Positions 6,040 to 61,411 of a stretch of 64,000 nt of DNA are shown here, one piece after another. The notes under the pieces are model-generated. The model worked only from the letters and a program-made list of their open reading frames with translations. It had not been told where the DNA came from and did not search any database. The stretch is from Candidatus Nitrosocosmicus agrestis (GTDB lineage: Archaea > Thermoproteota > Nitrososphaeria > Nitrososphaerales > Nitrososphaeraceae). The translations under genes were made by a program, and so were the position numbers. How positions within the stretch are numbered: the stretch's first letter is position 1; the number at the start of each line of letters is the position of its first letter. The DNA is taken from the NCBI RefSeq assembly GCF_008389435.1, contig NZ_VUYS01000015.1, positions 1 to 64,000 on the forward strand, read 5' to 3'.

Positions 6040-6402
6040 ATTTTTGCACTTTTTAAAAATATAATTTAACTGGCTAGTTGTTCTATTGTTACTTACAAAA
6101 GTCACATAATCTTTATCCGGTATATATATATGAGAAACAAAGGTATTATTTTTAAATGGATTAGCGACCTTATTTTTTTATATACAAAAAAGGCAAACGA
6201 TTCATCAAAATTGTTAGGTTCAAACACAGCGAATCGGATAAGACTTTTTTGTGTTATTGATCTAGTCTAGTCAAAAATATTATAGTCTATGCAAAGTTTG
6301 CAACGAGTCATCCATAAGGTAAATTTTAGAGTAAATGCCAATTTACTAAAGATTTGTATTTTATTCAAAAAAAAAATTGGATTGGATAAGAAAAGAAGAA
6401 AG
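6040..6402. other. Spacer between convergent genes
   Basis: AT-rich, with a TATA-rich stretch (TATATATATATG near 6121-6132). No gene seen. It holds the 3' ends of two convergent genes. Confidence 0.5.
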
Positions 6403-6660
6403 TTAGTCGTTTGATTGTGCAGCTGCGTTATTACCAGTGTTACCTTGGAATTGGAAGTTAAGGTTATTTCCTGAAAAGAAGGTACTACCACCAGAAACGA
6501 CTTGGCTATTTTGTTTTGATTTTTGAGATTGAGTAATAGCTTGTTTTGCTTTGTTACTCTTTTTTGCTAATGCATCTTCTGAAATTGCCAATGGAGCTAA
6601 AACCAAAGCAAGTGCTAAAACGACTGCTGCTGATACTAGTAATGTTTTACCTGTATTCAT
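6403..6660 (-). CDS. Small secreted protein with C-terminal GNNAAAQ motif
   Basis: 85 residues from ATG 6660, chosen over an upstream ATG because it begins a clean signal peptide (MNTGKTLLVSAAVV, cleavage near DALA-KK) and a TATA box (TAATATATATGG on the minus strand, 6686-6697) sits about 30 bases upstream. The mature part starts with a Lys/Gln/Ser-rich stretch and ends in a Asn/Gln-rich tail, SGNNLNFQFQ followed by GNTGNNAAAQ. The same tail occurs in the proteins at 60968-61411 and 37560-37833, so this is a small exported family. Its function is unknown; the shared tail may be a binding, assembly or anchoring element. Confidence 0.75.
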   Translation of the reverse strand: MNTGKTLLVSAAVVLALALVLAPLAISEDALAKKSNKAKQAITQSQKSKQNSQVVSGGSTFFSGNNLNFQFQGNTGNNAAAQSND

Positions 6661-6685
6661 ACTTGTAAACTTGATTACAATAATT

Positions 6686-6697
6686 CCATATATATTA
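6686..6697 (-). promoter_or_regulatory. TATA box of the GNNAAAQ protein gene
   Basis: TAATATATATGG on the minus strand, centred about 32 bases before ATG 6660. This supports the shorter start. Confidence 0.5.
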
Positions 6698-7854
6698 GCT
6701 ATTTTAGAATTTTTGGTAAACAAGTTTAAGTATTGTCTAATAGTAAAGAATTCTACACGATTTTACTATTCCCGATCTATTGTGATATAGATAACGCATT
6801 TTTAGTAAATTGATTTACTTTTTGGTAATAACCTATTCTGAGTATAAGGTATTTAAAAAAACACGCTTTACAGAGTAGTTATAAAGAATCAAGTCAAACT
6901 GGATGCGGATTAGCCCAAGGTCATGTTCTCATGTTTTACTCTCGATACAAAATTGATAATCGGTAGGCGGGTAGAATAAACTAAACAAAATATACCAAAT
7001 ATATCACAAAACTAATTCATGTTTCCTAATTAGATCCATTTATCTGATCGCTGCAGTGTATCACCCTATTTCAACTCAGAGGTTAAAAAAACAAGATCTC
7101 GAATTACAAAAAAATTATTGATATATCATAATTCATTTGACTATCAAAGTAAATTGATCATATGGCAAGATTCACTTTGCAAGCTTTATTATCAATGTGT
7201 CCAACTATAACAATGAATCCCAATCAAATACTGACAATTTTATAGGTCTTTGTTTAAAACAAAAAGTAAACCCGAGCCTTATCCACATGAAAATGACCGG
7301 GGCAAAAAATAGTGATAATAATAATACTATTAATAGCATTTAACGGCTATAATGTTTATAGACAGGTATAAAATATGATTTACTGTAAATCACTGCTAAC
7401 TTGAAATTGCATTTGACAGATTAAAATCGATATTAGATAAATATCAACTTTATGACAAATCAGACACAGATATTGAATGTGCAATATACTTCAAAGTAGA
7501 TAAAAAATTACATATTGAGTTCTATCTGAATATTTGGATTCAGATGTTGATGTTGATATTGATATCATTATTATCAAACTATTCTTAACCATACTGGTAT
7601 TGCCCCGTGGTGAAAGAAGGATGAGCCGATTTTCAAAAAGGAAATTGAATTATTGTAAGCACTGTTAAAAACAAAGTTCTTCCCCCTTACTCCTTATTTC
7701 CCCCAATCCAATCCAAATTAGAGAAGTATTACAGATTATTACCAAAAAATTTTGTGGGTATCCGTATATCCTAACAAATTTAGAATTCCAAAATTATCAA
7801 AATTCTTAAGTAAAGAAAAATTTCGACAATATTGTGACTCTGATTATATACTTA
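6698..7854. other. Long spacer, over 1 kb
   Basis: No confident gene. A plus-strand frame at about 7398-7588 is open and protein-like (LEIAFDRLKSILDKYQ) but has no start codon, and a GATGTT-type repeat at 7545-7562 disturbs it. It could be a remnant. Confidence 0.45.
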
Positions 7855-37559: not shown

Positions 37560-37833
37560 ATGAGTAACCTACTAAGAATCAAAAAGTCGGCATATTTGGA
37601 ATCATGTTCATTGTTGCAGCATTAGTTGGATCAATAATAGCCATTTCTGGTGTTAATAATGCAGTATTTGCAACAAAAAAGAAATCAAAAACTCTCTTCA
37701 AGACATTACTCAAGAAAGCCTTACAGACGAGAGTGCAGAATGTTTTTCAAATAACAATACACTAGCATCATGTAACAACCTTGCACCGTCATTTAACCTG
37801 AATGATGGCAACAATGCAGCAGGTCAGCAATAA
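37560..37833 (+). CDS. Small secreted protein of the GNNAA-Q tail family, frameshifted twice
   Basis: The frames join into one protein of about 91 residues if one A is added to the A5 run 37581-37585 and one to the A6 run 37675-37680: start MSNLLRIKKVGIFGIMFIVA, signal peptide ending near VFA, then NSLQDITQESLTDESAECF, two cysteines, and the tail CNNLAPSFNLNDGNNAAGQQ. The tail is shared with 6403-6660 and 60968-61411. Both fixes are single-base additions to A runs, so the gene may be intact in the cell. Unknown function. Confidence 0.6.
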
Positions 37834-52763: not shown

Positions 52764-53360
52764 TTAATTTTTCTTTTTATTATAATGGAGCAAAACTGTT
52801 CCAGAGTCAAATGCTATTGATTCAACAAGCGATAGTTTACGAACCTCTTTTAAATCATTAAATATGGTCTTTCCATTCCCGATTACGACAGGATTGACAA
52901 ATAAATAATATTCATCAATCAAGTTTTCCCTAATCAAGGAAGAATCAAATGAAGCACCACCGTAAACTATGATATCACCACGACCTTTTTGGTTCTTTAA
53001 CTTTGTAATTTCTTCCCTAAGTTCACCAGTTGCTATTTCAGTATTGGGCCACTCTGATTTATCGAGTGTTTTAGTAAACACTATCTTTGGCGTATCAATC
53101 ATTTTTTTGGCAAACAAGTACTCTTTGTCTTTAGGTCTTTTTAAAACATCAGACCAATAAGAAATGAATTCATGGGTCATTTTTCTCCCTAGGAGGACAG
53201 TATCAACTGGTTCATGTAATCTATCTTCATATGCTCGAAGTTTTTCATTCCAAGTAAAATCTATCCAGTCCATTTCATTATTGGGTCCCGCAATGCAGCC
53301 ATCAACAGACATTTCTACATGTAGTTTTAATTTTCGTGTAGGCTCAGTATTATCACTCAT
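52764..53360 (-). CDS. Dihydrofolate-reductase-family protein (RibD C-terminal-like)
   Basis: 198 residues from ATG 53360. Family landmarks: LKLHVEMSVDGCIAGPNNEM at the start, DTVLLGRKMTHEFISYW, IVFTKTLDKSEW, GDIIVYGGASFDSSL with the GG loop for NADPH phosphate, and EYYLFVNPVVIGNGKTIF at the end. It belongs to the YyaP/YwjB group, cytoplasmic NADPH-dependent reductases of unknown substrate, distinct from folate DHFR. An intact sister of the dead copy at 39305-39835. Confidence 0.85.
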   Translation of the reverse strand: MSDNTEPTRKLKLHVEMSVDGCIAGPNNEMDWIDFTWNEKLRAYEDRLHEPVDTVLLGRKMTHEFISYWSDVLKRPKDKEYLFAKKMIDTPKIVFTKTLDKSEWPNTEIATGELREEITKLKNQKGRGDIIVYGGASFDSSLIRENLIDEYYLFVNPVVIGNGKTIFNDLKEVRKLSLVESIAFDSGTVLLHYNKKKN

Positions 53361-60967: not shown

Positions 60968-61411
60968 TTACTCTTGTGCTGCTGCATTATTACCGGTGTT
61001 TTCTTGTCCCTGCAGATTCAAGTTATTACCAGAGGCCGCGGTATTATTTCCGGATGCTGCCTCGCTGCTCTGTCCAGAAGATTGTGATTGACCTATTCCT
61101 TGTGAAATGCTATTATCGCCATTACTATTGTCATCGTTGTCATTACCATTATCATCATTATCATTGTCATCTATTGATTTTGATCCAAAGTTACCGTCAT
61201 AATCTTCTCCGTAATGCTTCTTCAGGTTTTTGTCACAATCATCTTCGTGATCTTTATAGTAATCCTCATCATTTTTGCATTTATCCTTATCGACTCCATA
61301 GTGTGCCAATGCGGTTTGAAGATTATGTGTCGATGCACCCAGAGTTAGTATCGTTGCAAATAGTGCCACAATCAAGATTGCTGCTGTATTTGAATTATTT
61401 GACTTTATCAT
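60968..61411 (-). CDS. Acidic secreted protein with C-terminal GNNAAAQ motif
   Basis: 147 residues from ATG 61411, preferred because it starts the signal peptide (MIKSNNSNTAAILIVALFAT, cleavage near ALAH). Then a Cys/Asp-rich stretch (DKDKCKNDEDYYKDHEDDCD) with two cysteines, an Asp/Asn repeat region (NDNDDNGNDNDDN), Ser/Gln-rich spacer and the tail SGNNLNLQGQENTGNNAAAQ. The tail is the same as in the proteins at 6403-6660 and 37560-37833. The acidic middle could bind calcium or other cations. Exported or surface-associated; function unknown. Confidence 0.75.
   Translation of the reverse strand: MIKSNNSNTAAILIVALFATILTLGASTHNLQTALAHYGVDKDKCKNDEDYYKDHEDDCDKNLKKHYGEDYDGNFGSKSIDDNDNDDNGNDNDDNSNGDNSISQGIGQSQSSGQSSEAASGNNTAASGNNLNLQGQENTGNNAAAQE

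Follow-up and report, generated by a model that had tools for sequence, protein, structure and literature searches.

The window, that is, the whole stretch of 64,000 nucleotides of Candidatus Nitrosocosmicus agrestis analysed here, carries three genes that each contain a single copy of an Asn/Gln-rich unit. Gene A (6403..6660, minus strand) is an intact ORF with its ATG at 6660, coding for an 85-aa secreted-type protein whose N-terminus is the hydrophobic segment MNTGKTLLVSAAVVLALALVLAPLAISEDALA and whose tail reads NNLNFQFQGNTGNNAAAQ-SND. The unit itself spans 47 residues (6415..6555, minus strand; profile E 2.3e-21) and is of the type having Val19/Gly29 and no cysteine. The region 6387-6769, which takes in gene A with some 110 bp upstream of it, recurs on contig C11 of the same genome as a 383-bp duplicate with 99.5% identity. 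Gene B (60968..61411, minus strand) is likewise an intact ORF of secreted type, 147 aa long, with a signal-peptide-like N-terminus, a tail reading NNLNLQGQENTGNNAAAQ-E and a 47-residue, cysteine-less unit at 60974..61114 (minus strand; profile E 2.4e-17). Its Asp/Cys-rich N-terminal segment (HYGVDKDKCKNDEDYY...NFGS; 61181..61303, minus strand) is also found in the members at loci L019 and L171. Relatives of gene B occur in 14 of the 15 genomes of the genus, and many of them have two or more units.

Gene C (37560..37833, plus strand) is broken, the signal-like part and the unit being in different frames. That is, one frame starts from the ATG at 37560 and stops early, a second one, ending at 37765, holds the hydrophobic segment (ATG at 37604), and a third has the tail NDGNNAAGQQ. 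The unit is of the Cys type and covers unit positions 3-47 (37693..37827, plus strand; profile E 3.5e-12). Two relatives from the same genus (L162 and L163; 77-79% DNA identity) retain the gene as one uninterrupted ORF; relative to them, a single base is missing from the window copy near 37690. Because the relatives are intact and this base is missing, the window copy would be either a pseudogene or the product of a sequence error. An earlier note had described three secreted proteins sharing a tail; this stands for genes A and B, which are intact ORFs, and not for gene C, which is spread over three frames. Elsewhere in the window, a 258-bp segment (52854-53111) is 76% identical to L058:3176-3433 and has no relation to the tail.

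The GNNAA tail turned out to belong to a 47-residue, Asn/Gln-rich repeat, of which it forms the C-terminal half and whose consensus is NxAxQGIGQSQSSxQNSQCVSGxxTxxSCNNLNxQNQxNxGNNAAAQ. The GNNAA DNA pattern gave 28 matches in the host genome, against 0 for a reversed control, with copies approximately 165-180 bp apart, and a profile of the whole unit matched the genome at 106 places with E <= 1; at 98 of these, E was below 1e-7. The similarity between the tails is far beyond chance. In total, the host genome has about 100 units in about 45 genes, with one to nine units per protein separated by Gly/Asp/Ser linkers that are 5-22 residues long (median 9). Asn and Gln make up 33% of the residues in the units versus a median of 10% in the window ORFs, and Pro, Met, Trp and Tyr are almost absent from the unit. 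The members were gathered through a profile search and fetched regions. Of the 43 host-genome ORFs with a unit scoring 30 bits or more, 39 start with a signal-like segment, as called by a simple hydropathy rule, and in 40 the last unit lies within 3 aa of the protein end. Across all loci (164 ORFs), the last unit is followed by exactly one residue in 105 cases and by at most three in 135. The earlier proposals of a conserved C-terminal element on secreted proteins, and of a tail at a fixed distance from the end, are therefore borne out by these counts. The tail had also been thought to be a short tag behind a variable spacer, and this did not hold: it is half of a larger module, which is found inside the proteins as well and can be repeated in tandem up to nine times.

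This internal occurrence marks it as a structural repeat, not as a signal for sorting. If the unit were a C-terminal tag for sorting, assembly or partner binding, read by a single export or anchoring machine, this would account for its being terminal in nearly all members with one to three trailing residues. The idea is nevertheless improbable, given the up to nine internal tandem copies, a conservation that spans all 47 residues, and the fact that no anchoring segment or processing site was seen after the unit. Among the three roles that had been envisaged for the tail, assembly fits best, while that of a sorting signal is contradicted by the internal tandem units.

Position statistics were derived from 296 distinct full units. 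Positions 1, 5, 7, 9, 11, 15, 31, 35, 37, 39, 41 and 47 are each occupied by one residue in 94-100% of the units, whereas even positions are variable; over the two strand regions, the mean entropy is 0.54 bits at odd positions versus 2.04 at even positions. The cysteines at positions 19 and 29 are strictly paired: both are present in 169 units, the second is shifted by one in 3, neither is found in 124, which carry Val19/Gly29 instead, and no unit out of 296 has a single Cys. The strongest covarying pair is also 19-29 (effective depth ~71), and the pairs 13-35 and 11-37 covary too, all summing to 48, as expected of an antiparallel strand pair or of an arch closed by a turn at 20-28. If residue i pairs with 48-i, the invariant Ile7 would face Gly41.

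Most family members are dispersed singletons in the host genome. Six dispersed two-unit paralogues (L141, L143, L144, L145, L146 and L149) are 90-95% identical over ~510-550 bp, with little identity beyond the gene, and another locus (L147; C33:111000-129500 of the same genome) has seven members, full and divergent, clustered in 18 kb. Among six near-identical two-unit paralogues dN/dS is 0.08-0.47, and the repeat proteins are therefore under purifying selection. One could argue that the family merely reflects neutral, selfish proliferation of genes that share no function, as copies are spread in the genome and include the 383-bp, 99.5% identical duplicate and the broken window copy. We regard this as very unlikely in view of the dN/dS values and of the strict conservation of residues and of the Cys pair in all genomes.

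Scans of the repeat against Pfam, NCBIfam and PHROGs returned sub-threshold, composition-driven matches alone. Those to sublancin, conotoxin and UspA1 repeats were accordingly rejected as noise; for a sublancin-type glycopeptide bacteriocin, the scores were below cut-off with both PF19151 (18.1 of 26.9 bits) and TIGR04196 (18.2 of 40 bits). A PDB sequence search (A1, A2 and a single protein; E <= 10) gave two weak, unrelated matches and no homologue, and FapC was not matched. Similarly, the curlin repeat model PF07012 had no match in the genome at E <= 10 while the E. coli control was positive, and it was also absent from the Pfam scan results; that is, neither the PDB searches nor the curlin model revealed sequence homology to any amyloid. 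Moreover, none of the viral contigs searched encodes the repeat, and no description of the repeat proteins turned up in the open-access literature searched for Nitrosocosmicus with amyloid, proteomics or repeats. Going by these comparisons, the family is undescribed in Pfam and NCBIfam, which agrees with the earlier statement that no described family has this tail: Pfam, NCBIfam, PHROGs and PDB sequences hold no homologue. The proteins might alternatively be bacteriocin-like, secreted antagonistic peptides, in which small one-unit proteins with a Cys pair would act against competitors. Many members are indeed small, variable paralogues, and weak sub-threshold matches to sublancin exist. Still, these matches lie far below the cut-offs and reflect Q/C composition. 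Units lacking Cys are common too, some members have several units or a collagen fusion, and no immunity or processing genes were seen, so that we give this explanation hardly any credence.

The repeat was found in all 15 Nitrosocosmicus genomes, with 13 to over 100 units each, and among 46 other relatives units were found in a single genome only (G036). A phylum-wide profile search of 398 genomes gave matches in four members of the genus alone, i.e. in one of 163 genera. The earlier note had named many members across soil lineages as what would support its reading; there are many members, but they belong to one genus. The unit of G036 sits on a 5.6-kb contig. A neighbour protein tested on this contig is closest to genus g1 and was not found in another genome of G036's own genus, and for this reason mis-binning of the contig is probably the explanation, rather than transfer. 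In the GTDB contig collection, nearly all named records with the repeat are Candidatus Nitrosocosmicus, and the remaining ones are labelled Nitrosopumilus sp. or Nitrososphaeraceae, which we assume to be label problems. Two metagenome-assembled genomes labelled Nitrosopumilus sp. (JACDCB01 and JACDHC01) have many units, and it is suggested that they are Nitrosocosmicus.

AlphaFold2 modelling of three tandem units (76 relatives) yielded a pLDDT of 83 and a pTM of 0.66 and placed two strands of 17-20 residues in each unit, six in all; two of the five models were good, and the other three had a pLDDT of 61, 55 and 46. The single window unit was modelled with low confidence, and such poor folding of one unit would fit a need for stacking, as weak evidence. 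When the three-unit model was compared with the PDB using Foldseek, the top match was FapC (E 3e-5, probability 0.96, TM 0.22) and the second was the CsgA fibril (E 0.011, TM 0.10), followed by solenoid proteins (ice-binding, tapirin) for which E exceeded 0.1; a search of a viral structure library gave nothing below 1e-3. The low TM-scores indicate that the FapC and CsgA matches reflect local repeated geometry and not a superposable fold. A stacked fold of two strands per unit is predicted by the modelling, as is amyloid stacking. Traits of functional amyloids are present in the family: signal-like N-termini, tandem imperfect repeats and alternating, Asn/Gln-rich predicted beta strands.

CsgA and FapC have conserved Asn/Gln networks, and FapC has imperfect repeats with long flexible linkers (PMC12822426). 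The Pseudomonas FapC (PDB 9u4u), a secreted matrix protein, is similar to the repeat family in its imperfect repeats, flexible linkers and conserved Asn/Gln. It differs in having almost always three repeats, which fold into Greek keys, and in coming with a fap operon that includes an outer-membrane pore. In Nitrosocosmicus, ~45 genes are dispersed, the number of repeats ranges from one to nine, and each unit comprises two strands, with cysteines in pairs; the proteins share no sequence homology with FapC. The curlin CsgA (PF07012; PDB 8enq) likewise consists of two-strand repeats rich in Asn, Gln, Gly, Ser and Ala, with alternating inward Asn/Gln; compared with it, the Nitrosocosmicus unit is about twice as long and has an extra Cys pair and variable linkers. 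Among archaea, the sheath protein SH of Methanospirillum hungatei is an extracellular amyloid-like beta-arch protein that covers the cell and has proposed disulfide links (PMC10593813). Its rigid hoops are built from one 40-kDa protein that has a helical cap, in contrast to the numerous small repeat proteins of Nitrosocosmicus, which lack such a domain and for which the PDB sequence searches gave nothing beyond the two unrelated matches noted above.

Units are also fused to other domains in the same genome. One protein (L056:2952-3800; C28) carries a partial unit ahead of a collagen triple-helix repeat (PF01391, E 1.5e-16), and in another (L154:2793-3827; C15) a partial unit is fused to a NosD/right-handed beta-helix domain. 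Collagen-like and beta-helix domains are typical of extracellular structural proteins, and the fusions therefore fit a matrix module. The L056 protein is a secreted archaeal collagen-like protein. The same fusions would suit non-amyloid surface adhesins, i.e. disulfide-stapled beta domains or a beta-solenoid that bind polysaccharide, minerals or cells and do not polymerise; the variable, outward-facing even positions could be binding surfaces, and the weaker Foldseek matches include beta-solenoids. Against this, it is polymerising amyloids that gave the top matches in structure, one unit by itself is not predicted to fold, and no membrane anchor was seen. We consider adhesins a serious alternative, albeit an unlikely one.

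The explanation that we favour, with slightly better than even confidence, is that the proteins are a lineage-specific multigene family of secreted, disulfide-stapled, amyloid-like proteins that form a coat or aggregation matrix. In this mechanism, the proteins would be exported by Sec, and each unit would form two long beta strands (~1-19 and ~29-47) and, between them, a Gly/Ser-rich turn, with the Asn and Gln side chains as ladders on the alternating conserved face and Ile7 opposite Gly41. Outside the cell, a Cys19-Cys29 disulfide would staple the turn in ~58% of the units. Units may stack within a protein via the flexible Gly/Asp/Ser linkers and also between proteins, the last unit at the very C-terminus leaving a free edge, and such stacking would produce amyloid-like fibres, as in CsgA and FapC. 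One-unit, multi-unit, collagen-like fusion and beta-helix fusion proteins could then co-assemble into a coat or matrix around the Nitrosocosmicus cells, which have no S-layer, enveloping them and holding them together. The family itself, its secretion and its conservation are firmly supported; polymerisation, a location in the cell coat and a role in aggregation are what we infer.

Nitrosocosmicus is a widespread soil ammonia oxidizer without the S-layer of other members. Its genomes have been reported to contain no S-layer genes, slp and slaB being absent, and its cells to have 30-nm hair-like surface structures of open composition, interpreted by the authors as a glycocalyx (PMC11559005, PMC6776761). 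The thaumarchaeal S-layer protein slp and its anchor slaB are unrelated in kind to the repeat family and would be a possible functional counterpart as a covering. Biofilm formation is aggregation-first, with deposition as preformed aggregates and no known attachment proteins (PMC12448741), and N. arcticus aggregates resist sonication (PMC6657660); what the outer layer consists of and how aggregates attach have been named as open questions (PMC11559005, PMC12448741). The distribution of the repeat family coincides exactly with this S-layer-less genus, and its tie to the coat is a correlation. A bolder version of the proposal is that the proteins are the main proteinaceous outer covering, their disulfide-stapled amyloid-like fibres being the hair-like structures that replace the S-layer and drive aggregation and biofilm formation. 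We hold this to be possible but rather doubtful, and the glycocalyx reading of the hairs in the literature counts against a protein coat. If true, it would represent an archaeal envelope type made of dozens of paralogous functional amyloids; and if the proteins do polymerise, archaea would have arrived independently at the principle of functional amyloids that CsgA and FapC exemplify. The genus-wide family, with ~100 units per genome in the host, provides named candidates for surface and matrix fractions. The same genome also encodes a divergent, shorter repeat protein (L052:9043-9717; C10) with the same Cys...SCNN core (VQVSKQGSSCEAGEDNNNSCNNISISRQGDGDSDNGKGNK), which is perhaps a sub-family of the repeat proteins.
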